Origin: Eubacteriales bacterium
GTDB taxonomy: Bacteria; Bacillota; Clostridia; Lachnospirales; Lachnospiraceae
Direction of reading: 5' to 3'
DNA length: 33,270 nucleotides
NCBI GenBank assembly: GCA_030531555.1
Contig: JAUNNI010000027.1
Coordinates: forward strand, 1,410-34,679
A program made the translations under genes and the position numbers. A model generated the notes under the pieces. It had not been told where the DNA came from and ran no database searches. It saw only the letters and a program-made list of their open reading frames with translations. Position 1 is the first letter of the stretch, and each line of letters starts with the position of its first letter. Below, one piece after another: positions 13,010 through 28,687 of this stretch.

Positions 13010-13240
13010 ATGGCGAAGAAAGAATATTCACTCTCACACACAAAATGGATGTGCAAGTATCACATTGTCTTCACACCTAAGTATAGACGAAAAATAATAT
13101 ACAATCAACTAAAAACGGACATCCGCGATATCATTAAACAGTTATGTGCATATAAAGGTGTAGAAATATTAGAAGGACATCTTATGCCAGATCATATCCA
13201 TATGTTAGTAGCGATACCACCAAAGATTAGCGTATCATCA
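12905..13240 (+). mobile_element. Truncated IS200/IS605-type element
   Basis: The left part has a subterminal hairpin (about 12910-12926) ahead of a Y1 transposase gene, the layout of IS200-type elements, which lack inverted repeats. Recognisable coding similarity ends at about 13240, just before the IS630 copy, so the right half is gone. The left boundary is approximate. Confidence 0.7.
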
Positions 13241-13282
13241 TTTGAAGATGGTTCTTTAACTAGTATAGTGTCTTTTAAATAA
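13010..13282 (+). pseudogene. IS200-type Y1 transposase TnpA, 3' part missing
   Basis: The frame starts at ATG 13010 after AAAGGAAAGG. It has the TnpA opening WMCKYHIVFTPKYRRKIIY and the metal-binding HUH motif in MPDHIHMLVAIPPK. After SVSSF (about 13240) the sequence no longer resembles TnpA, and the last residues read through 20 orphan bases into the IS630 end. The C-terminal catalytic tyrosine helix, expected around residue 125-130, is absent, so the protein cannot carry out transposition. Confidence 0.85.
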
Positions 13283-13963
13283 ATGGACTGTATTTCCAAG
13301 CTGTGATATACTATCTCCAGAACATTCTGGAGGTATCATAATGGGTAGAAAATCGTCAACTATCGAACTCTCAACAACTGATCGCGAGTATCTTGAACTT
13401 CAAACACGAGCAAGAACCATTCAAGCACAAACAGTTAGCAGAGCAAGAATTATTCTTCTGAAATCAGAAGGCATTTCTATCGAAGAAATTGCTGATAAAG
13501 TTGGCATGAACAGAAAGAGTGTTATGCTCTGCTTGAAAAAGTTCAAAGAAGGCGGTGTTGAAAATGCTCTTTTTGATGCACCTGGTCGTGGCAGAAATGC
13601 TGAGATTACAGATGAAGAAAAGGCATGGATTATCAACCTTGCTTGTCAAAGACCGGTAGATCTCGGTTATGCTGCTGAAACATGGACCTATGCAAAATTA
13701 ACTGCCCACATCAATAAAACGGCCGAGGCTGCTGGATATACAAGACTCTCAACTATTCACAAGAGTACTATAAATATCATTCTCGATGAAGCTGATATTA
13801 AGCCGCATAAAATCACTTACTATTGCGAAAATCGGGATTCTGAATTTGACCAAAAAATGCACAATGTACTACTCGTATATAAACAGTTGTCCCTCCAATT
13901 CGACGAAGAAGGCAATCTTTTTCCGTTTGAAGAGGATGGACAGGTAGTTCATGTCCTTTCTTA
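13263..13963 (+). mobile_element. 3'-truncated IS630 copy
   Basis: The 701 bases are identical to 26430-27130 of the complete IS630 except one base (13920 T versus 27087 C). The left end GTATAGTGTC follows CTA of a CTAG target, as in the complete copy. Identity stops abruptly at 13963, inside the transposase gene, where MATE-gene sequence begins. The right end is missing. Confidence 0.9.
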
Positions 13964-13967: not shown

Positions 13968-14538
13968 AGAGGCAGACAAAGACCAGATTGAGCAGGACAT
14001 TGATGAGGCCGGCAGTCATGATAAAGAGGGTCGGCCTTCGGGTATCGCTATTGGATCTGAGGATGGCGGCACCGAAATTATAGACCAGGATAAAAAAGAG
14101 TCCAATGAAATAGATGCGGATATAGAGAACTGACAGGGACAGGATGGACGCCGGGGTCCCCATGGCGGTCAGGATCACACCTGCAAAGAGGAAACCGAAG
14201 CTGGCTGTGAGAATGCCTGCGAAACAGGCGATAAAATAAGCCGTGTGGATGGCCTTCTGAACTTCGTCATAATCGCCCTTACCGATTAGTCTGGAAACGG
14301 TCACGTCCGCACCGATGGACAGACCCATCAGACCCCAGGTGAACATGGAGACCACAGGGGCTGTAGAGCCTACGGCAGCCAGGGAAAGTTCGCCGGCATA
14401 ACGGCCCACGATCATGGAGTCTGCAGCATTGAAGAATCTCTGAAATGCGTTGGAGATCATGAGGGGATAGGCAAAACGCAGCATATGGATCAGGAGATGG
14501 GAACCTGTCATTTGAATGGGTTGGCGATTGTGTGACAT
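13964..14538 (-). pseudogene. MATE-family efflux transporter, C-terminal part lost
   Basis: The start at 14538 (MSHNRQPIQMTGSH) is preceded by GAGGACG. About 191 residues of a MATE/NorM-type drug:cation antiporter are present, including FAYPLMISNAFQRFFNAADS, GRYAGELSLAAVGS, WGLMGLSIGADVTVSRLIG and ILRSNSDTRRPTLF, about the first five to six of twelve membrane helices. Family proteins have about 450 residues. At 13963/13964 the frame passes into the antisense of the IS630 copy. The gene is divergent from the D-amino-acid transaminase gene, so it probably belonged to the same chromosomal or cargo block. Confidence 0.88.
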
Positions 14539-14740
14539 GAGATATCGTCCTCTTTTTTCTATGGTTATCAAGGATATTATGGTATAATTTCATTATGAAA
14601 ACAAGCTGAAAATCTCAAATAGGATATCGCATAAAATCTACAACTATGAAGTTGGCCTTATTCATGCACATTTTCGCGGAATCCGTGTATGGTTTTTGGT
14701 TTGATGTCTAAATCATATTGAGAAAAAAAGGAGCAGGACA

Positions 14741-15580
14741 ATGAAGAACATTGCTTATTACGAAGGCCGAACCTCTCTCATTGATGAGATGATGATTCCG
14801 GCAAATGACCGTGCATTTTATTTTGGTGACGGTATCTATGAAGCGGCTACGGTATACAATCACAAAATTTTCGCTTTGGATGATCATCTGGATCGTATGT
14901 TTAACAGTGCAGCGATCGTCAATATCAAACTGCCCTATACAAGGGAAGAATATGCAGCCATCCTGAAGGATCTGGTGAAACAGGTGGATCATGAGATCCA
15001 GTTCCTTTACTGGCAGGTGAGCAGAGCCAGTGCGCCAAGAGGCCATGCTTTCCCTGGTGATGCAAAGCCAACACTCTATGTTTACAGCAAACCACTGGAG
15101 AAGGTGGAAATGAAGGATGACTATCACCTGATCTCCGTTCCGGATACCCGTTATTTCCACTGCAACTGCAAGACCCTGAACCTGATCGTCAATGTTATGG
15201 CGGCAGATCAGGCCAAGTCCTGTGGCTGTCAGGAGGTTGTTTTTATCAGAGACGGCCTTGTGACAGAGGGATCCCATTCCAATATCCATATCATTAAAGA
15301 GGGTAAACTGATCACCCACCCACTGGACAATCTGATCCTTCCCGGCACAGAGAGAAAGCACATCTTAAGATACTGTGATCAGCTGGGCATCCCATATGAA
15401 GAGAGAGCCTTTTCTCTGGATGAACTGAAAGCAGCTGATGAGATCGTCATCTCTTCAACCAGTCAGCCTTTCATGAGAGCGATCTCTGTGGACGGTCAGC
15501 CTGCCGGCGGTAAGGATCCGGAGATCTGTGAGAAGATCAGATCCTGCTACTGGGCAGAAGTTGCCGACTTGTATGAATAA
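14741..15580 (+). CDS. dat: D-amino-acid transaminase (fold-type IV PLP enzyme)
   Basis: This enzyme interconverts D-Ala plus 2-oxoglutarate with pyruvate plus D-Glu, and acts on other D-amino acids. Its 279 residues are typical of class IV aminotransferases. Seen features are the N-terminal RAFYFGDGIYEA, the PLP lysine Lys144 in CKTLNLI (equivalent to Lys145 of the Bacillus enzyme), and Glu176 in TEGSHSN. QVSRASAPRGHAFP (Arg100, His102) matches the carboxylate-trap motif that separates D-amino-acid from branched-chain and lyase relatives. AAAGGAGCAGG precedes the ATG. It lies upstream of the peptide importer operon and divergent from the MATE fragment. It would use D-Ala or D-Glu released from imported peptides, or supply D-Glu for wall synthesis. 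Confidence 0.88.
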   Translation: MKNIAYYEGRTSLIDEMMIPANDRAFYFGDGIYEAATVYNHKIFALDDHLDRMFNSAAIVNIKLPYTREEYAAILKDLVKQVDHEIQFLYWQVSRASAPRGHAFPGDAKPTLYVYSKPLEKVEMKDDYHLISVPDTRYFHCNCKTLNLIVNVMAADQAKSCGCQEVVFIRDGLVTEGSHSNIHIIKEGKLITHPLDNLILPGTERKHILRYCDQLGIPYEERAFSLDELKAADEIVISSTSQPFMRAISVDGQPAGGKDPEICEKIRSCYWAEVADLYE

Positions 15581-15702
15581 CCAATGTTTGTAAATTGCAT
15601 AAAGCCGATTCGAATTTATACGACAAGATGGTGTATAAAACATACACTGATTGCCGGAATAAAATGTAGGATGCTTAACTTTTGTTGGCTTTTTGGGTAT
15701 TA

Positions 15703-15731
15703 TTGACAAAAGAGACAATTTTTTATATAAT
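15703..15731 (+). promoter_or_regulatory. Consensus sigma-A promoter of the peptide importer operon
   Basis: TTGACA (15703-15708) and TATAAT (15726-15731) are both perfect consensus and separated by exactly 17 bases. The start codon of the lipoprotein gene lies 67 bases beyond the -10. A promoter this strong is usually held in check by a repressor. Confidence 0.9.
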
Positions 15732-15739
15732 CGGTTTAT

Positions 15740-15766
15740 AATAATACGTTAATTAAACGAATTATT
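15740..15766. promoter_or_regulatory. Palindromic operator candidate at the importer transcription start
   Basis: AATAATACGTT and AACGAATTATT are inverted repeats (10 of 11 matched) around five bases, beginning nine bases after the -10 box and so covering the expected transcription start. This is a classical repressor position. The regulator is unknown and no adjacent regulator gene exists. Confidence 0.6.
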
Positions 15767-15798
15767 ATTGCAGGATTCTAATAGAGGAGGAGAAAATT

Positions 15799-17448
15799 AT
15801 GAAAAATGCAAAAAAACTTCTTGCATTAGCAGCCATGGCATCTATGCTTATGATGACAGCTTGCGGCGGTTCCAAGCCAGCAGCTACAGAAGCTGCTAAA
15901 GAAGAGGCTCCAGTAGAGGCAGGTGCTTCTATTTCCCAGAGCCAGGATATCGTAATCGGTATGAACGTAGACTTCACAACAATGGACCCACAGGATACAA
16001 GTGATACAATTTCCGGTGCTGTTCAGAAGATGATGCTTGATTCCTTATTCGCATTCGATGAGAACATGGATATCTATCCTATGCTTGCTACAGGTTATGA
16101 AGCAAATGATGAGGCTACAGAGTTCACAATCAACCTTCGTGAAGGCATCAGCTTCACAGATGGTACACCTTGGAACGCAGATGCACTTCTTACAAACATT
16201 GAGAAGTGGGATACAGTAGAGCTTGGTCTTAAGAGATCTACATTCCTTTCCAGCATCATCGATACATATGAGAAGGTTGATGATTACACAGTTAAGATCA
16301 ACCTGACATCCCCATTTGGTGCGTTCATTGCTAACCTTGCACATCCAGCATGTACAATCATGAGCCCTAAGACAATTGAGGCAGGTGTTGAGGAGTGTGC
16401 ACTCAGACCAGTTGGTACAGGTCAGTACACATTCGTTGAGTGGGAAGAAGGCGACCACCTTACAATCGCTCTTAACAAAGACTGGTGGGGCTTCGATGCA
16501 GAGATCTGCGGTGGCGAGGCACTTGCTGATTCCGATTGTGGTTTCAACACAGTTACATTCAGACCTGTTGAAGAGTCTGCTACACGTGTAGCAATGATCC
16601 AGTCCGGTGATGCTCAGATCATCGAGCCTATCCCAACAGAGAGCGTTGCAGTTCTTCAGAACGACCCTAACGTTAAGGTTTCTGTAGAGAACTCCATCAT
16701 CGTTCGTTACCTCTTCATGAACAACCAGAAAGAGCAGTTCAAGGATGTTCGTGTTCGTCAGGCAATCGACTACGCAATCGACAAGAACGCTTACTGTGCA
16801 GTTGTTAAGGAAGGCCTTGCTGTTCCAGCAACATCTGTTATCGGTGAGAACGTAGCTTACTACAAGGGCAATGAGCCACGTGAGTACAACATCGAGAAGG
16901 CTAAAGAGCTTCTTGCAGAGGCTGGCTATCCAGATGGTTTCACATGTACATTAACATACACAAACACAACTGCTAACCAGAAGCAGTGTGAGTTCATCAA
17001 GCAGCAGCTTGAGCAGGTTGGTATCACAGTTGAGCTTAACGGTCTTGAGTCCGCAATCTGTAACGAACTCGTACAGGCAGCTTATGACAGCGGTGCAGAT
17101 TCACCTGTAGAGCTTTACGTTATCGGTTGGTCTCCATCCACTGGTGATGCTGACTGGGGTATCCGTCCACTTCTTGCAATCGAGTCTGAGCCACCTATGA
17201 GCTACAACATCTGCTACTACGAGAACGAAGAGCTTGATGGTTACATCCAGCAGGGTCTCCAGAGTGCAGACGTAAACGTTCGTGCAGAGGCATATGCTAA
17301 CGCTCAGGATCTCGTTTGGGAGGACGTTCCGCTTGTATGTCTTGCTCAGGATTCCAACACATGGGCTACAGCTGCTAACATCTCAGGTGTATTCCTTAAC
17401 CCAGATGGCGCTCTGATCATTCAGGATGCTAAGATGACAGCTGAATAA
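15799..17448 (+). CDS. Peptide-binding lipoprotein of a Dpp/Opp-type ABC importer
   Basis: This is a family 5 extracellular solute-binding protein (DppA/OppA class, DppE in B. subtilis naming) of 549 residues. It has a lipoprotein signal with basic start, hydrophobic core and lipobox MMTAC, with Cys22 as the lipid anchor, then a Ala/Glu-rich linker. The body has the family pattern: TMDPQDTSD, EFTINLREGISFTDGTPWNADAL, VGTGQYTFVEWEEGDHLT and VRQAIDYAIDKNAY. AGAGGAGGAG precedes the ATG. Codon choice is visibly narrower than in neighbours outside the operon (ACA, GTT, CTT repeated), a sign of high expression. It captures peptides outside the cell for the permeases encoded downstream. The peptide specificity, plain or D-residue-containing, cannot be read from sequence. 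Confidence 0.92.
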   Translation: MKNAKKLLALAAMASMLMMTACGGSKPAATEAAKEEAPVEAGASISQSQDIVIGMNVDFTTMDPQDTSDTISGAVQKMMLDSLFAFDENMDIYPMLATGYEANDEATEFTINLREGISFTDGTPWNADALLTNIEKWDTVELGLKRSTFLSSIIDTYEKVDDYTVKINLTSPFGAFIANLAHPACTIMSPKTIEAGVEECALRPVGTGQYTFVEWEEGDHLTIALNKDWWGFDAEICGGEALADSDCGFNTVTFRPVEESATRVAMIQSGDAQIIEPIPTESVAVLQNDPNVKVSVENSIIVRYLFMNNQKEQFKDVRVRQAIDYAIDKNAYCAVVKEGLAVPATSVIGENVAYYKGNEPREYNIEKAKELLAEAGYPDGFTCTLTYTNTTANQKQCEFIKQQLEQVGITVELNGLESAICNELVQAAYDSGADSPVELYVIGWSPSTGDADWGIRPLLAIESEPPMSYNICYYENEELDGYIQQGLQSADVNVRAEAYANAQDLVWEDVPLVCLAQDSNTWATAANISGVFLNPDGALIIQDAKMTAE

Positions 17449-17525
17449 TCTTATACCTGTGGCTGCAGGCCGCTATAAGATCATTATCTTTTAAAGAAAA
17501 AACAAAAAGACTTCAGTAATTACGG

Positions 17526-17561
17526 TGGGCACTGCAGAGGCTTTCTGCAGTGCCCATTTTT
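17526..17561 (+). terminator. Strong hairpin between the lipoprotein and permease genes
   Basis: TGGGCACTGCAGA (17526-17538) pairs perfectly with TCTGCAGTGCCCA (17544-17556), followed by TTTTTC. It probably acts as a partial terminator that lets the binding protein be made in excess over the membrane parts, a common design in such operons. Confidence 0.88.
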
Positions 17562-17650
17562 CACATTTTTATCAGACGGAAGTTCAGATAGAGATGTGTA
17601 CAAATTGAGACGCAACTTGAAAACGTATCCTACGAGAGGGGGGTAACTAC

Positions 17651-18571
17651 ATGTTAAAATATACAGTGAAGAGAGTGCTGGGAATGATCCCTACACTGAT
17701 CATTGTTGTAACATTTGTATTTCTTTTCGTTCGATTGATCCCTGGTGACCCAGCACGACTGGTAGCCGGTGAGCAGGCGACACTCGAAGACGTAGAAAAC
17801 GTAAGAGAGCAGCTTGGTCTGAATCAGCCGGTCTATGTCCAGTACGGCAAGTATGTCACCGGTCTTCTCCGTGGAGATCTGGGCACATCACTTCGAACAA
17901 AACGTCCTGTTCTTGATGAAGTCAAGGCAAGATATATGAACACTCTGAAACTGACAATCATGGCACTTTTATGGAGCTCCATCGTTGGTGTTGCTTTAGG
18001 TGTCTGGTCCGGTAAGAACCGAAGTAAATGGCAGGATTATACGGGAATGACGGTGGCCGTCTCGGGCATCTCGTTGCCGAGCTTCTGGATTGGTTTCCTT
18101 CTGATCATGCTTTTCTCTGTAAAGCTCAGATGGCTTCCAACAACAGGTGCTAACGGCATCAAGGGCCTGATCTTACCTGCGATCACACTGGGCACAAGTA
18201 TCGCAGCCATCATTGCCCGATTCACAAGATCCTCCATCATCGAAGTTCTGAAAGAGGACTATATCCGTACAGCCCGCGCAAAAGGTCTTAAAGAGAGTGC
18301 GGTTACCTGGGGCCATGCCTTCAGAAACTCCATGATCTCTGTTGTAACTGTTGTAGGTCTTCAGTTCGGTTTCCTTTTAGGTGGTTCTGTTGTTACTGAG
18401 CAGGTATTCGCTTTCCCTGGACTGGGATCCCTGCTGATCGAATCTGTAAACTATCGTGATTATCCGGCGATTCAGTCTCTGATCCTGATCTTCTCGCTGC
18501 AGTTCATCGTGATCAACCTTTTAGTTGACCTCCTGTACGCAGTGCTGAATCCGGAAATCAAGTTATCATAA
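17651..18571 (+). CDS. dppB: Peptide ABC importer permease DppB
   Basis: This 306-residue inner-membrane permease has six predicted membrane segments and the DppB/OppB pattern: the N-terminal MLKYTVKRVLGMIPTLIIVV segment, PGDPARLVAGEQAT, GDLGTSLRTKRPV, and the EAA loop that contacts the ATPases (EDYIRTARAKGLKESAV). AGAGGGGGG precedes the ATG. It is first in the run dppB-dppC-dppD-dppF with gaps of 15, 13 and -1 bases, and is separated from the lipoprotein gene by a terminator-like hairpin. It forms a heterodimeric pore with DppC. The family call is firm. Dipeptide versus oligopeptide use is unresolved. Confidence 0.93.
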   Translation: MLKYTVKRVLGMIPTLIIVVTFVFLFVRLIPGDPARLVAGEQATLEDVENVREQLGLNQPVYVQYGKYVTGLLRGDLGTSLRTKRPVLDEVKARYMNTLKLTIMALLWSSIVGVALGVWSGKNRSKWQDYTGMTVAVSGISLPSFWIGFLLIMLFSVKLRWLPTTGANGIKGLILPAITLGTSIAAIIARFTRSSIIEVLKEDYIRTARAKGLKESAVTWGHAFRNSMISVVTVVGLQFGFLLGGSVVTEQVFAFPGLGSLLIESVNYRDYPAIQSLILIFSLQFIVINLLVDLLYAVLNPEIKLS

Positions 18572-18586
18572 AGAAGGAGGAAGCGT

Positions 18587-19465
18587 ATGTCTAAGAAAAA
18601 AGAAATCAATGAAAAAAATGACATCAAGACACCTCTTTCTGAGGCGATCCGCAAATTTAAAAAGCAGAAAAATGCAATCATAGCCTTATGCTTTATCCTC
18701 TTCCTGGTTGTTCTTGCATTTATCGGTGATAAAATCGTACCTTTTGGTATCAATGAATATGATTACTCCAACACCCTTCAGGGACCATCCATGGCCCATT
18801 GGTTTGGAACAGATGAGTTTGGCCGTGACCTTTTCTCAAGAATCATCTGTGGTACAAAGATTTCTCTGGCTGTAGGTCTTTCTGCAGTTAGTGTCGGCTG
18901 TATCTGTGGTACGATCCTTGGTCTGATCGCAGGCTATTATCGTGGCTGGATCGACAGCGTGATCATGAGAATCTGTGATACCTTATTCGCATTCCCTGGC
19001 ATCATCCTTGCCATCGCCATCGTAGCGATCCTTGGTTCTGGTCTTGGCAACGTTGTCATCGCTGTTGCTGTCTTCTCCACACCAACCTTTGCACGACTGG
19101 TTCGAAGCCGAACTCTGGCGCTGAAGAATGCCGTCTTTGTTCAGGCTGCACGAAATATCGGTGCATCTGATGCCCGTATCCTGTTCCAGCACATTCTGCC
19201 TGGCGCATTCCCTGAAATCATCGTTCAGTATACCATGTCTATTGGTTCTTCCATCCTGACAGCTTCTTCACTGAGCTTCCTTGGTATGGGTGCACAGCCT
19301 CCTACACCTGAGTGGGGTCTTCTGCTCTCCAATGGACGTAACTATATGTTAACTGCATTCCACTGTACACTCTTCCCTGGTATCGCGATCTTCCTGACCG
19401 TTCTTTCTTTCAACCTTCTGGGTGATGGTCTTCGTGATGCTCTGGATCCAAAATTAACAGATTAA
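18587..19465 (+). CDS. dppC: Peptide ABC importer permease DppC
   Basis: The 292-residue second permease has an N-terminal cytoplasmic lysine-rich tail, a first membrane helix (AIIALCFILFLVVLAFIGD), HWFGTDEFGRDLFSRIICGTK typical of DppC/OppC, and an EAA loop in QAARNIGASDARILFQHILPG. GAAGGAGGAAG precedes the ATG, 15 bases after dppB. It pairs with DppB in the membrane. No unusual features were seen. Confidence 0.93.
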   Translation: MSKKKEINEKNDIKTPLSEAIRKFKKQKNAIIALCFILFLVVLAFIGDKIVPFGINEYDYSNTLQGPSMAHWFGTDEFGRDLFSRIICGTKISLAVGLSAVSVGCICGTILGLIAGYYRGWIDSVIMRICDTLFAFPGIILAIAIVAILGSGLGNVVIAVAVFSTPTFARLVRSRTLALKNAVFVQAARNIGASDARILFQHILPGAFPEIIVQYTMSIGSSILTASSLSFLGMGAQPPTPEWGLLLSNGRNYMLTAFHCTLFPGIAIFLTVLSFNLLGDGLRDALDPKLTD

Positions 19466-19478
19466 GGAGGAAAAGAAT

Positions 19479-20474
19479 ATGGCAGAAGAGATTAAAAATG
19501 TTCTTGAAGTCAACAATCTTCACACCTATTTTTTTACAGACTCCGGTACTGTTCATTCTGTAGAAGGTGTTGATTTCCAGTTAAAAGAAGGACATACATT
19601 AGGCATCGTAGGTGAGTCCGGTTCCGGTAAGAGTGTTACTTCTCTTTCCATCATGGGCCTCCTGATGGGTACCACAGGTAAAGTCGTAGAAGGTGAGATC
19701 CTTCTGGATGGCAAAAATATCCTGGAGTTTTCTGATGAGGAGAGAAGAAACCTTCGTGGCGGACAGATCTCCATGATCTTCCAGGAACCAATGACCAGCT
19801 TAAACCCTGTTCTTACCATTGGTAAGCAGCTGACTGAGTGTATCCTCCAGCATCAGAAGGTTTCCAAAGAGGAAGCCTGGAAGATGGCGACAGAGATGCT
19901 CAGAAAGACAGGTGTTCCTCGTGTTGAGCGTATGATGAAGGAGTTCCCATTCCAGCTCTCCGGTGGTCAGCGTCAGCGTGTTATGATCGCCATGGCCCTT
20001 GTATGTAACCCTCGTATCCTGATCGCCGATGAGCCAACAACAGCTCTTGACGTTACCATTCAGGCTCAGATCCTTGATCTGATGAATGAACTCAAGAAGG
20101 ATATTGGTACATCCATTCTCTTCATCACCCATGACCTGGGTGTTGTTGCAGAGGTCTGCGATGACGTTGTTGTTATGTACTGTGGACGAGCGGTTGAGAA
20201 GGGCAATGTTTATGAACTCTTTAAGAATCCATCCCATCCTTATACACAGGGTCTTCTGAAGTCCATCCCTAAGATTGGTCAGAGCAGTGATGAGGAACTG
20301 GAAGTGATTCCTGGTAACGTTCCAAATCCTAAATATATGCCTAAGGGCTGTAAATTTGCTCCAAGATGCAGCAAGTGTTTTGAGAAGTGTCTCAACGAGG
20401 AGCCTGGATTCTTCGATCTTGGCAACGATCATTTCAGCAAATGCTGGCTTCATGAAAATGGAGGTGAGAAATAA
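19479..20474 (+). CDS. dppD: Peptide ABC importer ATPase DppD
   Basis: The 331-residue ATPase has Walker A GESGSGKS (about 45-52), Q-loop in FQEPMTSLNP, signature LSGGQRQR, Walker B RILIADEPTTALD, and the switch His in FITHDLGVV. The C-terminal oligopeptide-transporter extension contains GCKFAPRCSKCFEKC, the cysteine cluster that binds an iron-sulfur centre in characterised DppD/DppF proteins. AAGGAGG precedes the ATG. Its TAA overlaps the dppF start by one base (taATG), so the two ATPases are translationally coupled in equal amounts. Confidence 0.94.
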   Translation: MAEEIKNVLEVNNLHTYFFTDSGTVHSVEGVDFQLKEGHTLGIVGESGSGKSVTSLSIMGLLMGTTGKVVEGEILLDGKNILEFSDEERRNLRGGQISMIFQEPMTSLNPVLTIGKQLTECILQHQKVSKEEAWKMATEMLRKTGVPRVERMMKEFPFQLSGGQRQRVMIAMALVCNPRILIADEPTTALDVTIQAQILDLMNELKKDIGTSILFITHDLGVVAEVCDDVVVMYCGRAVEKGNVYELFKNPSHPYTQGLLKSIPKIGQSSDEELEVIPGNVPNPKYMPKGCKFAPRCSKCFEKCLNEEPGFFDLGNDHFSKCWLHENGGEK

Positions 20475-21454
20475 TGGGCACAAACAATCTGCTTGAAGCA
20501 ACTGACGTTAAGATCTATTATCCTGTCGCAAGTAGTTTTGGTAAAAAAGAATATGTTAAAGCGGTAGATGGCGTTTCCTTCGAGGTCAGAAGAGGTGAAG
20601 TTCTGGGTATCGTAGGTGAGTCCGGCTGTGGTAAGTCCACGCTGGGCAGAGGTGTCTGCAAGCTTGAAAATATCACATCCGGTAAGATTGTTCTGGATGG
20701 TGTGGATATCTCCAATTTCAATGCTGCCAAGATGCGTCCGATGCGTAAGAAGGTCCAGATGGTTTTCCAGGATCCATACGCATCTCTGAATCCACGTATG
20801 TCTGTCTTCGATATCATTGCTGAGCCTATGCGTATCCATGGCCTGGCAAAGAACAACGAAGAACTGAAAGAGAAGGTTCTGGCAACACTCCGCAAGGTTG
20901 GTCTGGATGATTACCATGCAAACCGTTATCCTCATGAGTTCTCCGGTGGTCAGCGTCAGCGTATCGGTATCGCAAGAGCCCTGGCTGTTGAACCGGATCT
21001 GATCATCGCCGATGAGCCTGTATCTGCTCTGGACGTATCCATTCAGGCTCAGGTTCTGAACCTGATGAATGTGCTGAAGAAGGATCTGAACCTGACTTAC
21101 ATCTTCGTTGCCCATGACCTCTCCGTTGTTGAGTATATCAGTGACCGTGTAGGTGTTATGTATCTGGGTAACTTTGTAGAGGTTGCGGATAAGAAATCTC
21201 TCTATGAGAATCCAATGCATCCTTATACACAGGCGCTCTTATCAGCAGTGCCTGTTCCGGATCCAACAGCGAAGAAGAAACGTGTGATCCTGGAAGGTAA
21301 TATTCCTTCAGCTCACAACCCACCAAGTGGCTGTAAGTTCCATACAAGATGTCCAAAATGCATGGAGATCTGTAAGACTGTGGCACCTGAGAAATATCAG
21401 GCCAGCGAAGATCACTATGTCTATTGCCATCTCTATGATGATAAATTAAAATAA
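20474..21454 (+). CDS. dppF: Peptide ABC importer ATPase DppF
   Basis: This 326-residue partner ATPase has Walker A GESGCGKST (about 48-56), FQDPYASLNPRM at the Q-loop, signature FSGGQRQR, Walker B LIIADEPVSALD, switch His in FVAHDLSVV, and C-terminal cysteines in GCKFHTRCPKCMEIC. GGAGGTG precedes the ATG, which overlaps the dppD stop. It ends the importer operon, and a terminator follows at 21489-21524. The M55 peptidase gene that probably once followed is now separated by an IS91-family element. Confidence 0.94.
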   Translation: MGTNNLLEATDVKIYYPVASSFGKKEYVKAVDGVSFEVRRGEVLGIVGESGCGKSTLGRGVCKLENITSGKIVLDGVDISNFNAAKMRPMRKKVQMVFQDPYASLNPRMSVFDIIAEPMRIHGLAKNNEELKEKVLATLRKVGLDDYHANRYPHEFSGGQRQRIGIARALAVEPDLIIADEPVSALDVSIQAQVLNLMNVLKKDLNLTYIFVAHDLSVVEYISDRVGVMYLGNFVEVADKKSLYENPMHPYTQALLSAVPVPDPTAKKKRVILEGNIPSAHNPPSGCKFHTRCPKCMEICKTVAPEKYQASEDHYVYCHLYDDKLK

Positions 21455-21488
21455 AGGATGGAAGTTAAACACTTTATCGAATCAAGAC

Positions 21489-21524
21489 AAAAGCAGGTTC
21501 GGGCGATTTTTGGACCTGCTTTTT
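21489..21524 (+). terminator. Terminator of the importer operon
   Basis: AAAAGCAGGT (21489-21498) pairs with ACCTGCTTTT (21514-21523), followed by further T residues. Confidence 0.88.
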
Positions 21525-21613
21525 CCTTGATTTATAGGAAATTGCGCCTCCAGCGCATTTCTCAATAAAATAGCCCGCACGGAGGCGGGCATAACAAAAA
21601 GACGATGGCTTTT

Positions 21614-21787
21614 TTAGAAAAGGTAGAATCCCTCTTCTCCAAAATCGTCGTCAAGATCGTCTTCATTTAAGAAATAATCCATGTCAAGAAGTTGCTCCTC
21701 GCTCATACGGCGGATGTCTTTGGAAGTCATTCCTTCAGGTGGATTATCGATGTATTTTTTGCGCAGTTCCTCGATGTTGGTTTTCAT
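21614..21787 (-). CDS. Small acidic protein downstream of the IS91 transposase
   Basis: The 57-residue frame opens MKTNIEELRKKYIDNPPEGM and ends in a strongly acidic stretch with several Asp and Glu before GFYLF. GAGGAGG precedes the ATG at 21787, and the transposase stop is 39 bases upstream, so it is co-transcribed with the transposase. The context suggests an element-encoded accessory or regulatory protein. The family is not recognised. Confidence 0.7.
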   Translation of the reverse strand: MKTNIEELRKKYIDNPPEGMTSKDIRRMSEEQLLDMDYFLNEDDLDDDFGEEGFYLF

Positions 21788-21826
21788 GTGTTCGGCCTCC
21801 TCTTGAGAGGGTTATACCACTGGAGA

Positions 21827-22978
21827 TCAAGCAGAGGAACGCTTTCCACGAGATTTGGACATCTCTTTCTCGTATAGTTCTTCGAGGGGAACACGCTTGT
21901 GATTAAAGTAAAGCTCCAGAAAAAGCATTTTTTGTTTGCAGTTTGGACATTCTAATGGATCATAGCCAAATGCTGAAAGAATGGCAGTGCGCCATTGATT
22001 GAAACTAAGGAAGATTTGATGCTTCTCTTTGGAAATAGCAGGTATCAGTTTTTGATCTATATCACGATGGCGGGCATAGATACCACCATAGCGAATCATT
22101 TTAAAATGTTTCTCTGGGATATGCCGGATCAGTCGTTTGATGAAGTCCATGGCAGGAACCGTTTCTACAACATACTTTTCATCTTCATGTCGGTTGTAAT
22201 GAAAAGTAACCAGTTTGCCATCGTAGCTATCAATACGAGAAGTTGCAATAACAGGACGACCCAGATAGCGCCCAATGTATTTTACAACAGTATTGGGATC
22301 ACATTTGTTGGGCTTAGCATAAACATAGAAGCCATGTTTGTGTTCTTTGTAACAGTGAGATTTAGTCTTTTTAAAAGAAGGTCCCAGTCTGGCTTCCATT
22401 TCGTTTAGAAGCGCTGTGCGGAATGCATTTCTGAGGAAGGTATAATTGAAGTGATTTATGTTTCTCCAGAAAGCATCATCACTGAAACCGCCTTCAGAGA
22501 TAAGACAATGAATGTGTGGATTCCATTTGAGGTCTCTGCCGAAAGTGTGAAGAACCATGATGAATCCTGGTGTAAAGTTTTTTGAATGATTCAAATTGAA
22601 AAACATTCGGGATACAACACTGGATACAGAATGGAAGAGACAGTTGAGGAGTGAGCGGTCTTCTAGAAAGTAATCTCGAAGAGATTCATCAATAGTAAAA
22701 ACACAATGTCTGTGCTGGACTCTAACCAGCTTGAAAGACATGGATGTAGTGCGTTCCATGGCATATTTAGTGCCACAGGTTGGACAAAAACGGCTATGAC
22801 AGCGGAAGGGAACAAATTTAAGGTGTCCGCAGTGAGGACAGCCGTACATAGCCCCGCCAAAAGCAGGATCACCACAATTGATCATCTTTTCGATGTTTTC
22901 CAGCTCGGTTGGTCTTGGATGGAGAGTATATTTAATTTCTTCGTAATAGTCACTGAAAATTTTCTGGAGTATATTCAT
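21827..22978 (-). CDS. IS91-family Y2 transposase
   Basis: From the chosen ATG at 22978 (MNILQKIFSDYYEEI) the protein has 383 residues. An upstream TTG at 23026 would read through the terminal hairpin and is unlikely. It has an N-terminal zinc-binding pair (YGCPHCGHL ... FCPTCGTKY), the HUH motif NPHIHCL (His155 and His157), the two catalytic tyrosines in KYIGRYLGRPV spaced Y-x3-Y (234 and 238), and a C-terminal CPNCKQKM. All key residues for single-strand nicking and rolling-circle transposition are present. It looks intact. Confidence 0.9.
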   Translation of the reverse strand: MNILQKIFSDYYEEIKYTLHPRPTELENIEKMINCGDPAFGGAMYGCPHCGHLKFVPFRCHSRFCPTCGTKYAMERTTSMSFKLVRVQHRHCVFTIDESLRDYFLEDRSLLNCLFHSVSSVVSRMFFNLNHSKNFTPGFIMVLHTFGRDLKWNPHIHCLISEGGFSDDAFWRNINHFNYTFLRNAFRTALLNEMEARLGPSFKKTKSHCYKEHKHGFYVYAKPNKCDPNTVVKYIGRYLGRPVIATSRIDSYDGKLVTFHYNRHEDEKYVVETVPAMDFIKRLIRHIPEKHFKMIRYGGIYARHRDIDQKLIPAISKEKHQIFLSFNQWRTAILSAFGYDPLECPNCKQKMLFLELYFNHKRVPLEELYEKEMSKSRGKRSSA

Positions 22979-23013
22979 AAGATTATTATGAAGGAAAATG
23001 AAACAAAAAGAAA

Positions 23014-23042
23014 CCCCACCCCTCAAGATTGAGGGGCAGGGG
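23014..23042. other. GC-rich terminal hairpin of the IS91-family element
   Basis: CCCC-A-CCCCTCAA and TTGAGGGG-CA-GGGG form an almost perfect stem with a two-base GA centre, upstream of the transposase. It is a candidate origin or termination structure for rolling-circle transfer. Confidence 0.6.
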
Positions 23043-23047
23043 AGTTG

Positions 23048-23068
23048 AATAGGCGTAGCCTATTTTTT
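23048..23068 (+). terminator. Short terminator before the M55 peptidase gene
   Basis: AATAGGC-GTA-GCCTATT followed by TTTT is a compact hairpin reading toward the plus strand. It would stop transcription entering the M55 gene from the left. Confidence 0.65.
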
Positions 23069-23153
23069 ACTGCTGAAACAGGAGATAGAAAAAGTGTTGT
23101 GCAAAAAGTGTTCCGGCAGGAACACATGAATCAAAGAGAGACGGAGTAAAGCT

Positions 23154-23954
23154 ATGAAAATATTTTTCAGTGCAGATATCGAAGGTTGTGCCGGTGTGGC
23201 ACTGGGACCGGAATGTCATAAGAATGAGCCGGTTTACAAAGCCTTTGCCAGACAGATGACAAGAGAAGTGATTGCAGCCTGTGAAGCCGCCCATGAGATG
23301 GGGGCAGAGGAGATCGTGGTCAAGGATGGTCATGGTGACGCGGGCAATATCGATCCTCATGAGATGCCTTCTTACGTAACCCTCATCAGAGGCAAGAGCG
23401 GACACCCTTATAACATGATGTGGGGTATCGACGAGAGCTTTGATGGCGTGATGTATATCGGATATCATTCCCCTGCGGGCAATCCGAACTTTAATATCAG
23501 TCACACCTCCACAGGCAACAGCCTTTACATCAGACTGAATGGCAAATATATGAGTGAGTTTATGCTCAACTCTTATACCGCTGCCAATCATCAGGTGCCG
23601 ATTCTTTTTATTGCCGGTGATGAGGAAATCTGCAGACTGGCAGGAGAGATGGTGCCTGGCATCGAGACAGCGGTGACAAAGCGTGGTGTCGGCGGAGCAA
23701 CCATCTGTGTGCCAAGAGAGACAGTTGAGGAACGTATCAGAGCAGGTGTGAAGAGAGCCCTTCAGAAAGATCTTAAGCAGAATCTGATTCCTGTGCCGGA
23801 TCAGTATACTTATGAAGTCACTTTTAAGGACTGGAACAGAGCTTATCGTATGAGTTTTTACCCAGGCATGACCCAGATCGATACTTTCACAGATCGTCTG
23901 GTGACCAATCAGTGGATGGATATTGTCGCTGCGCACTGCTTTGTGGTATACTGA
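23154..23954 (+). CDS. dppA: M55 family D-aminopeptidase (DppA-like)
   Basis: This is a zinc D-aminopeptidase of family M55, whose B. subtilis member DppA cleaves D-Ala-containing dipeptides and is encoded with a dpp importer. Of 266 residues, the metal-site motifs are present: SADIEG at the N-terminus (Asp8, Glu10), DGHGD with His60, GYHSPAG with His105, and SEF with Glu135. Sequence around SHTST (His117) is also as in the family. GACGGAG precedes the ATG. It acts in the cytoplasm as a ring-shaped oligomer in characterised members. It sits downstream of the importer operon, separated only by the IS91-family element, and ahead of the M42 and C26 genes. Confidence 0.92.
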   Translation: MKIFFSADIEGCAGVALGPECHKNEPVYKAFARQMTREVIAACEAAHEMGAEEIVVKDGHGDAGNIDPHEMPSYVTLIRGKSGHPYNMMWGIDESFDGVMYIGYHSPAGNPNFNISHTSTGNSLYIRLNGKYMSEFMLNSYTAANHQVPILFIAGDEEICRLAGEMVPGIETAVTKRGVGGATICVPRETVEERIRAGVKRALQKDLKQNLIPVPDQYTYEVTFKDWNRAYRMSFYPGMTQIDTFTDRLVTNQWMDIVAAHCFVVY

Positions 23955-24080
23955 TGAAGTCGTAAAATCGTGGAAAATTAACATAAAATAATTTACAGAA
24001 ATTTCACGAGGAATATGATCATCTCGGTTTGGGTATATGCTATCCTCAAATGTGCAGAGTATGAGGGAGGAGCAGCAAAA

Positions 24081-24176
24081 TTGTCTCAGCGGTGGGTAAT
24101 ATCCCTTATCTGTCGGAACCGACAGGATGAAAAAAAGCTGATGATCATGTTCGTCGATAAGGAGGAAATAGAATGA
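24081..24176 (+). CDS. Possible 31-codon leader peptide coupled to the M42 gene
   Basis: A TTG start at 24081 has GAGGGAGGAG eight bases upstream. The frame reads 31 codons, including a basic, Arg-rich middle (WVISLICRNRQDEKK), and ends in TGA overlapping the M42 start codon (ATGA). Spacing, ribosome site and overlap make translational coupling plausible. The palindrome CTGTCGG-AA-CCGACAG lies within it. It is too short to be sure it is a gene. Confidence 0.4.
   Translation: MSQRWVISLICRNRQDEKKLMIMFVDKEEIE
24110..24125. repeat. Perfect 7-bp inverted repeat ahead of the M42 gene
   Basis: CTGTCGG-AA-CCGACAG sits 48 bases before the M42 start codon. It could be an operator or an RNA hairpin within the leader frame. 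No T-run follows, so it is not a terminator. Confidence 0.5.
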
Positions 24177-25261
24177 ATATTGAAATGTTTGGCAAGATTA
24201 CAGATGCCTTCGGACCAAGTGGATTTGAAGAAGATGTCATCAGAACAATTGCCGGCTACTGCCAGGAGTTTGAACTTGAGAATGATGCTATGAACAATCT
24301 TTATGCGCGTATGCCGGAAGTAGATCCTGGCAAACCAGTTGTGATGCTGGACGCCCATACCGATGAGTGTGGCTTTATGGTTCAGGCTATTCTGGACAAT
24401 GGACTTTTAAGTATGTTGACACTGGGTGGATTCGTTATGAGCAATCTGCCTGCTCATTCTGTTGTCATCAAAACAAGAGCCGGTAAGCTGGTCAAGGGTA
24501 TCATTGCAGCCAAACCGGTACACTTTATGACAGACGCTGAAAAAGCCAACCCGAACCTGACCATCGAAAATATGTATATCGATGTGGGCGCGGTATCCAG
24601 AGAGGAAGTCATCGAGTCCTTTGGCATCCATATCGGTGATCCGATTATGCCGGATGTTAAGTTTGAGTATGATGAAGAGCATGAGATCTGCTTTGGTAAG
24701 GCTTTTGACAACAGAGCAGGCTGTGCATGTATCGTTGATACCATGAAACAGCTTTTTGAGGAGAGAGCTTCCCTTCCTGTCAATGTGGTAGGCGCTTTTG
24801 CTGCTCAGGAAGAAGTAGGTACACGTGGTGCTCAGGTAACAAGCCAGGTGGTTAAGCCTGATTTTGCCATTGTTTTTGAAGGCTCTCCAAGTGATGATTT
24901 CTTCTTCAGCACCAATGTGTCTCAGGGACGTATGAAACAGGGGGTTCAGATTCGTCTGAGAGACCAGAGCTATGTATCCAATCCTGTTTTTGCTGATTTT
25001 GCAAGAGAGATGGCTGATAAGTATGGTATCCCTTATCAGGAGACTGTACGCCGTGGTGGCTCTACCAATGCCGGTAAGATCCATCTTAAGAACAAAGCGG
25101 TACCTGTTCTTGTACTGGGTGTGCCAAGCCGTTATGTACACAGCCATTACAACTTCTGTGCAAAAGCCGATTTAGAGGCGGCTGTGGATCTGGCCTGTGA
25201 AGTGATCCGTCATCTGGATCAGGAACGTCAGAAACATATCTGCAGACAGGATATTCTGTAA
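24173..25261 (+). CDS. M42 family metallo-aminopeptidase
   Basis: This 362-residue enzyme belongs to the TET/glutamyl-aminopeptidase-like M42 family, cytosolic di-metal enzymes forming large cages that trim short peptides. Metal and catalytic residues are all visible: His62 and Asp64 in LDAHTDECGF, Asp179 in KAFDNRAGC, Glu213-Glu214 in AAQEEVGTRGA, Glu236 in IVFEGS and His323 in YVHSHYN. AAGGAGG precedes the ATG. It follows the M55 gene by about 220 bases and precedes the C26 gene, so imported peptides would meet both L- and D-directed aminopeptidases. The preferred N-terminal residue cannot be told. Confidence 0.92.
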   Translation: MNIEMFGKITDAFGPSGFEEDVIRTIAGYCQEFELENDAMNNLYARMPEVDPGKPVVMLDAHTDECGFMVQAILDNGLLSMLTLGGFVMSNLPAHSVVIKTRAGKLVKGIIAAKPVHFMTDAEKANPNLTIENMYIDVGAVSREEVIESFGIHIGDPIMPDVKFEYDEEHEICFGKAFDNRAGCACIVDTMKQLFEERASLPVNVVGAFAAQEEVGTRGAQVTSQVVKPDFAIVFEGSPSDDFFFSTNVSQGRMKQGVQIRLRDQSYVSNPVFADFAREMADKYGIPYQETVRRGGSTNAGKIHLKNKAVPVLVLGVPSRYVHSHYNFCAKADLEAAVDLACEVIRHLDQERQKHICRQDIL

Positions 25262-25389
25262 GTCCTGAAGGATTCGACCTGGAGACGGATCGAAGACTAT
25301 GGAAAGATACGGCAGTGAATCGGTTTCACAATCTGTAATCAAAGAGATTGCCATGTAGAAAATAGGAATAAATGAAAGAGGGTAAATAT

Positions 25390-26139
25390 ATGAATGGAAA
25401 CAAACCGATTATCGGTATCGCAGGATTAACCAATCTGAATCCAAGACCGGGTTGGCGTCAGACGGAATTCGTTATTACAGGCTGTGCCAATGTCCAGGCT
25501 GTAATGAGAAACGGAGGTATTCCATTGGTTATTCCTGTGGATGTCTTACGTAGTGATGCAGAAGCAGCATTGGCGGTATGTGATGGTTTGCTTTTTCCGG
25601 GAGGTCCTGATGTGACACCATGGTATTATGGTGAAGAACCTCTTCCTGTCATCGATATTTTTGAACCAGACGCGGATGATGCCTGGCTTAAGGCAGGTCA
25701 GGTTGGCCTGAAGAGAAAGATACCTATGTTGGGGTGCTGCAGAGGTATCCAGCTTCTGAATGTGCTTATGGGGGGCAGTCTTTATCAGGATGTGCAGCTC
25801 CAGGGCGAAGGGATCATTCAGCATATGCAGAAATTTGACAGAAGTTATCTGACCCATCATGTGAATATTGAGGCAGATACCCATCTGGCAGGTATTCTGG
25901 GCCAAGGTGAGCACAAGGTCAACTCCATCCATCATCAGTGTGTAAAGGTACCTGGTAAGGGTATGCGCATCAGTGCCTATGCACCGGATGGCACCATTGA
26001 GGGTATCGAGGATGAGGAAGGCCTGATCATTGGTGTTCAGTGGCATCCGGAGAATCTGGTAGACAGCAATCCTGAAATGAACAAGCTTTTCAAGTATCTC
26101 GTGGATACCGCTGCAAAGCGTGCAGGTAAAGCAGATTAA
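25390..26139 (+). CDS. C26 family gamma-glutamyl hydrolase (PuuD-like class I amidotransferase fold)
   Basis: From ATG 25390 (AGAGGG seven bases upstream; an ATG at 25372 lacks a site) the protein has 249 residues. Family marks are the oxyanion strand LLFPGGPDVTP, the nucleophile elbow LGCCRGIQLLN (second Cys, residue 117) and the His-Glu pair in GVQWHPENL. PuuD hydrolyses gamma-glutamyl-GABA, and C26 relatives split other gamma-glutamyl amides. In this setting, with D-aminopeptidase and D-amino-acid transaminase, a gamma-D-glutamyl bond of wall peptides is a possible target. That is an inference, since no substrate residue proves it. It ends the metabolic cluster, with a terminator at 26175. 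Confidence 0.87.
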   Translation: MNGNKPIIGIAGLTNLNPRPGWRQTEFVITGCANVQAVMRNGGIPLVIPVDVLRSDAEAALAVCDGLLFPGGPDVTPWYYGEEPLPVIDIFEPDADDAWLKAGQVGLKRKIPMLGCCRGIQLLNVLMGGSLYQDVQLQGEGIIQHMQKFDRSYLTHHVNIEADTHLAGILGQGEHKVNSIHHQCVKVPGKGMRISAYAPDGTIEGIEDEEGLIIGVQWHPENLVDSNPEMNKLFKYLVDTAAKRAGKAD

Positions 26140-26174
26140 GAGATGATTTTGCCGGCAGGAAAATGCAGACATAG

Positions 26175-26222
26175 AAAAAGAGAATCGACTTTTGAATGAT
26201 CAGAAGACGGTTCTCTTTTTTA
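26175..26222 (+). terminator. Terminator after the C26 hydrolase gene
   Basis: AAAAAGAGAATCG (26175-26187) pairs with CGGTTCTCTTTTT (26208-26220) with one G-U pair, and the T-run ends at 26222. Confidence 0.88.
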
Positions 26223-26223
26223 T

Positions 26224-26430
26224 ATGACTGGAAAAAAATCTCCATCAAGCGTGAAGGGCAGGGGAGATGAAGGCCTCTTACAGATTTTGTTCCGTCTAAG
26301 GCGAGTCGGGGACTGTGCTCTCACGTATCCAGGCATCTGCCAGAAGCTGATGGCCAAGACTTGTCAGATGGATGCCATCTACTGTGAGATCTGCGAGACA
26401 GCAGGTTTTCAGGGCTTCTTCAAAGACTAG
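26224..26430 (+). CDS. Doubtful 68-codon ORF before IS630
   Basis: The frame begins two bases after a terminator, has no ribosome site, and ends in the TAG of the CTAG target of IS630. The Cys-containing second half (CQKLMAKTCQMDAIYCEICE) could be the remnant of a lost gene. No family is recognised and it may not be expressed. Confidence 0.25.
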   Translation: MTGKKSPSSVKGRGDEGLLQILFRLRRVGDCALTYPGICQKLMAKTCQMDAIYCEICETAGFQGFFKD

Positions 26431-27714
26431 TATAGTGTCTTTTAAATAAATGGACTGTATTTCCAAGCTGTGATATACTATCTCCAGAACATTCTGGAGG
26501 TATCATAATGGGTAGAAAATCGTCAACTATCGAACTCTCAACAACTGATCGCGAGTATCTTGAACTTCAAACACGAGCAAGAACCATTCAAGCACAAACA
26601 GTTAGCAGAGCAAGAATTATTCTTCTGAAATCAGAAGGCATTTCTATCGAAGAAATTGCTGATAAAGTTGGCATGAACAGAAAGAGTGTTATGCTCTGCT
26701 TGAAAAAGTTCAAAGAAGGCGGTGTTGAAAATGCTCTTTTTGATGCACCTGGTCGTGGCAGAAATGCTGAGATTACAGATGAAGAAAAGGCATGGATTAT
26801 CAACCTTGCTTGTCAAAGACCGGTAGATCTCGGTTATGCTGCTGAAACATGGACCTATGCAAAATTAACTGCCCACATCAATAAAACGGCCGAGGCTGCT
26901 GGATATACAAGACTCTCAACTATTCACAAGAGTACTATAAATATCATTCTCGATGAAGCTGATATTAAGCCGCATAAAATCACTTACTATTGCGAAAATC
27001 GGGATTCTGAATTTGACCAAAAAATGCACAATGTACTACTCGTATATAAACAGTTGTCCCTCCAATTCGACGAAGAAGGCAATCTTCTTCCGTTTGAAGA
27101 GGATGGACAGGTAGTTCATGTCCTTTCTTATGACGAAAAACCAGGACTTCAGGCAATTGCAACTACATCTGAAGATCTTAGACCTGACGAAAAGCATCCA
27201 ACAATCAGTCGAGATTATGAGTATAAGCGACTTGGGACCATTTCTCTACTGGCCGCAATTGATCTGTAGACAGGTGAAGCAATACCGTTAGTTCGAGACA
27301 AACATAGTAGTACAGAATATATTGAGTTTCTTCAGATGTTAGATCAGAAATATCCGAAAGACGATAAGATTCGAATCGTATTAGATAATCTTAAAGTTCA
27401 TACTTCGGAAGCAACAAGAAGATATTTGGCAACTGTGCCTGGACGATTCGAGTTTGTATTTACGCCCAAGCATGGTTCATGGCTTAATATGGTTGAGGGA
27501 TTCTTTAGCAAAATGACCCGCCAAATGCTTCGTGGAATTCGCGTTAAAAGCAAGGAAGAGCTTGAAAATCGAATTTATAAATACTTCGAAGAAGCAAATG
27601 AAGAGCCTGTTGTTTTTCATTGGAAATACAACCTTGATGATGTTGATGTTTCGGAAGCAATCATAGTAGATACGCTTCCTGTTAAAAAGTCCAGTTAAGT
27701 AAAGGATGATATAC
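26430..27714 (+). mobile_element. Full-length IS630-family element in a CTAG target
   Basis: The ends read inward GTATAGTGTCTTTTAAATAA (26430) and GTATATCATCCTTTACTTAA (from 27714), 14 of 20 matching. The flanks are C-TA on the left (26427-26429) and TA-G on the right (27715-27717), so TA of a CTAG site was duplicated, the known preference of IS630. The element has 1285 bases. The transposase has one in-frame stop. Confidence 0.92.
26508..27698 (+). pseudogene. IS630 transposase interrupted by a single in-frame TAG
   Basis: The frame opens with GGAGGTATCATA upstream of ATG and reads 253 residues to TAG at 27267-27269, then continues in the same frame (TGEAIPLVRDKHSST...) to the stop at 27696-27698. 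The helix-turn-helix part is residues 30-75. The first catalytic Asp is Asp252 (AAID), two codons before the stop. The second is in IVLDNLKVH and the Glu is in SWLNMVEGFFSKM, both beyond the stop. The 253-residue product cannot catalyse transposition. With Gln or Leu at the stop the protein would be a normal IS630 transposase. Confidence 0.9.
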
Positions 27715-27833
27715 TAGATACCATTTTCCAAAGAGAAATTTCCCCAAAGTCAAGTCTTGTATCTCATTTTTTCTGTATTAGAATAGCAAAGGTTTGTGCT
27801 TTGCCGAGCAGACAACACAGGAGGATTACAAAT

Positions 27834-28179: not shown

Positions 28180-28617
28180 ATGACGGAATCAAGTGCCAAA
28201 TATGATGTAACATATATGAATAAAATGATTGGCAAGACGCTGACTCAGCTTAGAATGGAACGCCATCTTACCCAAAGTGAAGTAGAAGTTGCATTAGGTA
28301 TGGGACCACGAACATTGTCAAAATATGAGAATGGAAGTCGTACAATTACGACAGATATATTGATGATGTTTTCAGACTTCTATAATGTTAGCGTACATTA
28401 TCTTTTGGAGGAGTTTCCAGATGATTCTTGGGGTAAAATTCAGAATGAGGCAGCACTGAATCTGTTGAATGAGTTGCCGGTTCATGAACAACGATTAATC
28501 CTGTTGAATATTATTAATAACTGGGAACATCATTTTGGAGATTTAGATTTGCAGAAGAGTAAAGTTGAAAGCAGAGTTTTGTCCTATTATTCCTCGCTGA
28601 AGAGCACATTGAAATAA
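28180..28617 (+). CDS. XRE-family transcriptional regulator
   Basis: Of 145 residues, a Cro/C1-type helix-turn-helix covers about 17-72 (LTQLRMERHLTQSEVEVALGM, then PRTLSKYENGSRTITTDILM), followed by VSVHYLLEEF as in phage-repressor-like regulators. The rest is a helical domain of unknown type. AGGAGGA lies 13 bases before the ATG, a little far; a GTG at 28173 is in another frame. It is probably the repressor of the recombinase module, by analogy with integrative elements. A terminator follows at 28641. Confidence 0.82.
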   Translation: MTESSAKYDVTYMNKMIGKTLTQLRMERHLTQSEVEVALGMGPRTLSKYENGSRTITTDILMMFSDFYNVSVHYLLEEFPDDSWGKIQNEAALNLLNELPVHEQRLILLNIINNWEHHFGDLDLQKSKVESRVLSYYSSLKSTLK

Positions 28618-28640
28618 AGAATTGCAAATTATGGAACAGC

Positions 28641-28687
28641 ACCAGAGAATTACTAAAATTTTTTAGGAATTTTCTGGTTTTTTTTTA
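28641..28687 (+). terminator. Terminator after the first XRE gene
   Basis: ACCAGAGAATTACTAAA and TTTAGGAATTTTCTGGT form a long, slightly mismatched stem followed by eight or more T residues. Confidence 0.85.

Follow-up and report, generated by a model that had tools for sequence, protein, structure and literature searches.

A conserved peptide-importer cluster with M55, M42 and C26 enzymes in Lachnospiraceae, and its probable role in the salvage of D-residue peptides

The window, a stretch of 33,270 nucleotides analysed here as a whole (contig JAUNNI010000027.1, positions 1,410 to 34,679 of the forward strand), derives from a Lachnospiraceae member deposited as Eubacteriales bacterium (GCA_030531555.1, here G000), a draft assembly of 3.12 Mb in 165 contigs. 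Between 14741 and 26139 it harbors a cluster of nine genes for a D-amino-acid-transaminase-like enzyme, a complete peptide importer, an M55 D-aminopeptidase family protein, an M42 aminopeptidase and a C26 gamma-glutamyl hydrolase-family protein. The importer, M55, M42 and C26 genes recur together in relatives, and the cluster is probably, if by no means certainly, a salvage operon for peptides with D-residues, most plausibly stem peptides of the cell wall or fragments of them. Among the novel claims, the one best supported is that C26 has been stably recruited into this operon. A conserved operon in Lachnospiraceae that lends itself to assay offers a way to ask which bacteria feed on stem peptides and what enzymes they use; some of these peptides are host immune ligands. 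Cleavage of gamma-D-Glu bonds by C26, if it takes place, would represent a new substrate class for a hydrolase family.

Gene content and conservation of the cluster

The enzymes and importer components named in a sequence-only reading of this DNA were all recovered where it had placed them, all on the plus strand. The cluster opens with a class IV aminotransferase resembling D-amino-acid transaminases (14741..15580; PF01063, E 1.7e-48), for which the closest solved structure is the Bacillus-type D-amino acid aminotransferase 1DAA (E 1.5e-50) and the best-scoring NCBIfam family is TIGR01121, yet at 231 bits against a cut-off of 277.45. The Arg/His trap, the Lys that binds pyridoxal phosphate and the Glu are kept in all four aligned sequences (Arg/His and Lys by alignment to 1DAA), the Ser in three of them and the Tyr in two, the other two being gapped there. 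The importer follows, composed of a GsiB-like substrate-binding lipoprotein (15799..17448; PF00496, SBP_bac_5, E 4.5e-84), a DppB/GsiC-like permease (17651..18571; PF00528, PF19300), a DppC/GsiD-like permease (18587..19465; PF00528, PF12911) and two oligopeptide-type ATPases, DppD-like (19479..20474) and DppF-like (20474..21454), both with PF00005 and PF08352, the latter also passing NF008453 (414.7 bits, cut-off 408).

Downstream of the importer lie the genes for the M55 protein (23154..23954; PF04951, 281.9 bits), the M42 aminopeptidase (24173..25261; PF05343, E 6.7e-76) and the C26 protein (25372..26139; PF07722, E 2e-57). All nine reading frames cover their Pfam profiles nearly end to end. 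Residues were checked in M55, M42, C26 and the transaminase, with catalytic roles that are presumed here. The six sites of M55 are kept in 26 of 26 sequences, the seven of M42 in 22 or 23 of 23 (one row is gapped) and the Cys-His-Glu triad of C26 in all 22, of which 21 come from the window and M55 loci and one from a control stretch. M55 aligns to DppA (1HI9, E 6.8e-27) and scores below the cut-off of the NCBIfam equivalog for Bacillus DppA (141 of 430 bits); C26 likewise falls below that for PuuD (84 of 266 bits).

A search through named genomes with M55, a single-protein query that reaches close relatives only, returned 23 loci. Fourteen of the 23 come from records with Lachnospiraceae in the title, and one carrier is [Clostridium] clostridioforme strain AGR2157 (L054). 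The common order in relatives is an S58 (DmpA-type) peptidase gene, in some cases preceded by the transaminase gene, then a divergent regulator, the binding protein, DppB, DppC, DppD, DppF, M55, M42 and C26. Neighbours were tallied over about 10 kb around M55 in 22 operon-type loci (L042-L063), which are related by descent and hence not independent, and some of which are cut by contig ends; L064, from Wenxinia and with an M55 of 43% identity, was left out. The sequence-only reading had made its case depend on a conserved neighbourhood in relatives, and such a neighbourhood exists, with M42 in 19 and C26 in 18 of the 22 loci versus 0 of 60 for either gene in other clostridial M55 stretches. The importer is present in 20 of the 22, S58 in 13 and the regulator in 11. 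The 60 stretches contain 62 of the 102 M55 places outside G000, taken best-scoring first, and a flank of under 6 kb on one side affects 21 of them as well as 9 of the 22 operon loci. Furthermore, 40 control stretches away from M55 in M55-carrying genomes held C26 once and neither M42 nor S58.

A sample from the family (L137-L151, 15 of the 26 M55 places outside G000) includes two stretches, L137 and L138, with the full importer-M55-M42-C26 set plus S58 and the regulator, and one, L143, with the importer-M55-M42 set without C26; the other 12 are without the set. L055 is without M42 within the stretch tallied. In L140-L142, of the same family, an M55 of 61–62% identity lies beside frames read as tuf/fusA.

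The association with C26 is strong, comprising two positions and two C26 branches. In L057-L060 the C26 gene lies upstream on the opposite strand and belongs to a separate branch with full support, suggesting a functional need for C26. Independent recruitment of the two branches is no more than possible, the C26 tree having a single and too distant outgroup row.

Proposed function and competing explanations

From the observed gene content, the conserved order and the conserved catalytic residues, we infer the substrate, the direction of flux and the action of C26 on gamma-D-Glu as follows. Short peptides would be taken up by the GsiB/Dpp-type ATP-binding cassette importer, and their N-terminal D- and L-residues would be removed by M55 and M42, together with S58 in relatives. 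C26 would open the gamma-glutamyl bond, while the transaminase would link D-Ala and D-Glu to keto acids. The best fit is with wall stem peptides, in which D-residues and a gamma-D-glutamyl bond occur together.

The sequence-only reading had also proposed two enzyme replacements relative to the Bacillus murein-peptide pathway. That C26 acts in place of the YkfC endopeptidase is plausible. The second proposal, in which the transaminase stands in for the epimerase, fared less well: the lack of an MR_MLE-type match in G000 is compatible with it without being proof, and the position of the transaminase in relatives, given below, lends it weak support. Glutamate racemase, general in walled bacteria and outside the set of families searched, would handle free D-Glu anyway.

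Several findings count against salvage of wall peptides. Of the 11 relatives in which the place next to S58 could be read, 3 (L043, L047 and L051) have the transaminase there, and L045, L050, L052, L053, L054, L060, L137 and L138 do not. L061-L063 are without C26 in the stretch examined, and M55 proteins of 61–65% identity stand without a nearby importer or peptidase in L056 (taken to be the same as L139) and L140-L142. Only 9 of the 21 genomes searched, one of them G000, gave an S66 LD-carboxypeptidase, so a complete murein-tripeptide route cannot be taken for granted. The DppB permease barely clears the model for nickel permeases (350.8 bits versus 350), and by both NCBIfam and PDB comparison the binding protein comes closest to glutathione binders.

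This last likeness introduces another explanation, in which gamma-L-glutamyl peptides of the glutathione type would be imported in GsiB-like fashion, split at the gamma bond by C26 and finished by M42 and M55, the D-specificity of M55 being incidental. The top NCBIfam models for the binding protein and the two permeases are indeed GsiB, GsiC and GsiD, the closest solved structure of the binding protein is YliB (1UQW, E 1.4e-100), which is taken here to be GsiB, and the solved relatives of C26 include PuuD, a gamma-glutamyl-GABA hydrolase. However, the three Gsi scores remain below the curated cut-offs (390/594, 423/463 and 430/484 bits, respectively), M55, S58 and the transaminase would be superfluous, and in Pantoea a GsiB-like importer travels with S58, M55 and the D-Glu-related racemase gene DgcA. 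Use of glutathione-type peptides is accordingly considered unlikely.

M42 aminopeptidases work on ordinary L-peptides, and the operon could be a general one for nitrogen scavenging from peptides, with M55 and S58 extending its range to occasional D-residues such as those of heat-treated dietary protein. One report describes feather breakdown by Fervidobacterium as enhanced by an M55 protein (PMC7017815), in keeping with such a role. The racemase, S66 and Ddl neighbours of some M55 genes elsewhere in the class point the other way, to D-amino acids and wall peptides: in the 60 other clostridial stretches an Asp/Glu racemase was found 7 times, S58 6 times, S66 5 times and the D-Ala-D-Ala ligase Ddl 3 times, as against 0 of 40 controls for each, with the reservation that these four families were chosen after seeing some of the loci and that 4, 3, 1 and 2 of the matches, respectively, are the seed loci. 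General scavenging appears quite improbable, and salvage of D-residue peptides, most plausibly from the wall, is the preferred reading.

A possible functional partner lies outside the cluster. An S58 peptidase of the DmpA type is encoded 13 kb upstream, at 78-1283 on the plus strand (PF03576, 377.7 bits). It differs from the adjacent S58 of relatives, sharing 39–42% identity with its counterpart in most operon loci and 47% with that in L055. The gene is G+C-rich and the sole such high scorer in the genus, where others reach up to 128.7 bits.

Regulation, mobile elements and origin of the window copy

Upstream of the binding protein gene, a sigma70-type promoter match, TTGACA-17-TATAAT (15703..15731, plus strand), is the sole 12-of-12 match in 14500-26500; the count of weaker matches in that interval is not far above shuffles. 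Sites of the form TTGAC..TA...T occur within 400 bp upstream of the binding protein gene in 14 of 17 relatives, a frequency for which the chance rate was not computed. In L043 a hairpin followed by a T-run (4037-4073) stands between the promoter and the start of the binding protein gene, with similar arrangements by eye in L047 and L051, and it may be an attenuator. Rfam gave no family at gathering score in the window, and the matches to the L043 leader were far below cut-offs.

The divergent regulator of relatives, a protein of 656–709 amino acids, contains a sigma54-activator-type AAA+ domain in the two proteins scanned, one of which (L054) ends in a winged-helix match, HTH_12, at 21.9 bits versus 21.4. 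At the Walker A position all 8 aligned sequences have GESGTQKK, and a pattern search of 12 loci with the regulator region found neither Walker A nor GAFTGA. Both motifs are present in all 7 remoter homologues from stretches with other M55 genes; such homologues sit in the M55 loci L078, L079 and L084. Loci with the motif-less form are L043 (1908-3875), L042, L045, L047, L049, L050, L053, L054, L137 and L138, and in L051 the regulator frame is split in two. A working sigma54 activator with -24/-12 promoters was considered and dropped, as the motifs are missing and the upstream sites are sigma70-like. The adjacent S58 and the divergent regulator are both missing from the window cluster, no such regulator being found between the transaminase and binding protein genes. 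RpoN has no match in G000, while 14 of 20 genomes searched score above the cut-off and matches occur in 5 of 24 genomes of the genus. This absence does not explain that of the regulator from G000, because the regulator seems incapable of acting with sigma54. A survey of sigma54 in Clostridiales lists regulons for peptide degradation; a word search of the text found none of 'peptidase', 'D-alanine' and 'D-amino' (PMC6615313).

A more specific scenario, put forward tentatively and with rather more doubt than confidence, joins these features to the C26 distribution. Gut Lachnospiraceae may have recruited C26, perhaps twice, as a cytoplasmic gamma-D-glutamyl endopeptidase into a YkfC-free wall-peptide operon, which in many carriers would be controlled by a regulator derived from sigma54 activators, lacking Walker A and GAFTGA and acting on a sigma70 promoter.

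In the window, an IS91-type element interrupts the operon order of relatives, in which DppF and M55 have no intervening gene in any of the 9 loci compared. The IS91-family transposase lies between these two genes at 21827-23026 on the minus strand (NF033538, 323 bits, cut-off 125), and congener G020 carries DNA 74% identical to window 21614-23049. Together with a terminator-like hairpin 3' of DppF (21489-21523, plus strand; a 15-pair stem followed by a T-rich tail), it makes it probable that the importer and peptidases of this organism are no longer one transcript. IS630-type copies, presumably of that family since the name was assigned from helix-turn-helix (HTH) and DDE_3 domains, stand in direct orientation on both sides of the cluster segment. 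The left copy is partial (about 13261-13963, plus strand; HTH_32, with a 703-bp match to the right copy), and a MatE-type reading frame runs into it. The right copy (26428-27720, plus strand) consists of two frames with HTH_32 and DDE_3 parts, and its one other match across the assembly is the left copy. The IS91-family transposase, the hairpin after DppF, the IS630 flanks, the S58 gene at 78-1283 and the lack of the S58 and regulator that adjoin the cluster in relatives are additions to the account given by the sequence-only reading.

Such disruption raises the prospect that the window copy is decaying or mis-joined in the draft assembly, and of little function in the organism. The IS91 split, the hairpin, the missing S58 and regulator, the partial IS630 copy with its MatE-type frame, the near-identical IS630 copies, the truncated neighbours, the high G+C and the 165-contig draft would all fit. 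On the other side, the nine frames cover nearly the whole of their Pfam profiles and the checked residues are kept, and a serine recombinase on the same contig has a 65–74% DNA match in four congeners, which fits a host contig, if weakly, since recombinases move. Taken together, a decayed or mis-joined copy is a minority possibility, on the improbable side.

Lateral transfer of the cluster into this genome is likely, because of its high G+C, the lack of M55 in congeners and the IS630 flanks, with mis-binning or a mis-join as less likely alternatives. The G+C of the nine genes lies at the 96.7–98.9 percentile among 182 G000 reading frames (at least 200 amino acids, from 20 sampled contigs). No M55 match was found in any of the 23 congeners searched, several of them incomplete, G000 itself being the one genus genome of 24 with a match; in the family M55 occurs in 25 of 397 genomes. 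Congener DNA matches to the segment were confined to a transporter, the IS91 element and a short MatE part, with at most 12 candidates scored per genome. Transfer is made less certain by mobile-element genes of equally high G+C (DUF3801-like 97.8, RadC/ArdC 95.6 percentile) and by the scatter of third-position G+C across the cluster genes, which lie between the 90.1 and 99.5 percentiles. In the M55, C26 and DppB trees the window falls among the operon loci, its nearest neighbour without strong support.

Elsewhere in the window, 5852-12115 contains genes for a RadC/YodL/ArdC-N protein, an HTH protein, a weakly DUF3801-like protein and a type IV coupling protein, which probably belong to a conjugative element. 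An IS200-type transposase frame (13010-13282) ends about where the left IS630 copy starts. At 28180-33145 lie genes for an HTH protein, a WYL regulator, the large serine recombinase, whose stretch is 69–74% identical at DNA level in three congeners and 65% in the fourth, and an AAA protein.

Comparison with known systems

The cluster resembles Bacillus dppA-E with ykfA-D in joining an M55 D-aminopeptidase to a family-5 peptide importer, complete in the window with a binding protein, two permeases and two ATPases. Unlike dpp-ykf, it contains M42, C26 and a transaminase, to which relatives add S58 and the regulator, and its M55 gene lies downstream of the importer. Activities of YkfB and YkfC are described in PMC3305447. 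Among the ten cluster-region proteins there is neither an S66 LD-carboxypeptidase (one match lies elsewhere in G000) nor an enolase-superfamily L-Ala-D/L-Glu epimerase (no MR_MLE_C match in G000), nor a Pfam match to a C40 gamma-D-Glu endopeptidase, sought in these ten proteins only. Proteins of MR_MLE type score above the cut-off in 17 of 21 genomes; the family is broad, with matches in all 14 control genomes, and its absence from G000 is at most suggestive. The description of the cluster as one for import of D-peptide-type substrates, distinct from dpp-ykf, therefore stands, with M42, C26 and the transaminase in place of S66, the epimerase and C40.

Similarity to E. coli GsiABCD lies in the binding protein and permeases, which score highest with Gsi models. 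GsiA is one fused ATPase, unlike the two separate ATPase genes here, which are accompanied by D-peptide enzymes.

M55 matches occur in 127 plasmid records, of which six regions were viewed, in gene tables that are incomplete. The Shinella region holds a D-aminopeptidase, a D-amino-acid transaminase, P1 (S58), M55 and an importer; that of Pantoea DgcA, the GsiB-like importer, P1 (S58) and M55; and that of Sulfitobacter P1, MurR/RpiR, an importer and M55. In S. meliloti an importer, MurR/RpiR and M55 are followed a few genes on by D-serine ammonia-lyase, in L. paracasei a substrate-binding protein, M42 and M55 are present, and in B. velezensis the order is M55, permeases, ATPase, substrate-binding protein, LD-carboxypeptidase, dipeptide epimerase and C40. 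S58 thus occurs in 3 of the 6 regions and the transaminase in 1; C26 is not among the genes listed for the six.

The proteobacterial M55-S58(P1)-importer loci of Shinella, Pantoea and Sulfitobacter share M55 and the importer with the window, and S58 with its relatives. Their regulators are of LysR or MurR/RpiR type, and neither C26 nor M42 is listed for them. The enzyme set had been called unusual, which it is not wholly: Shinella also combines a transaminase with S58, M55 and an importer. No title or abstract opening found in the open-licence literature describes the gene set. The M55-plus-importer kind is already known and widespread, because M55 and an importer occur together in the Shinella, Pantoea, Sulfitobacter, S. 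meliloti and B. velezensis loci, and the C26/M42 cluster is a variant within that kind.

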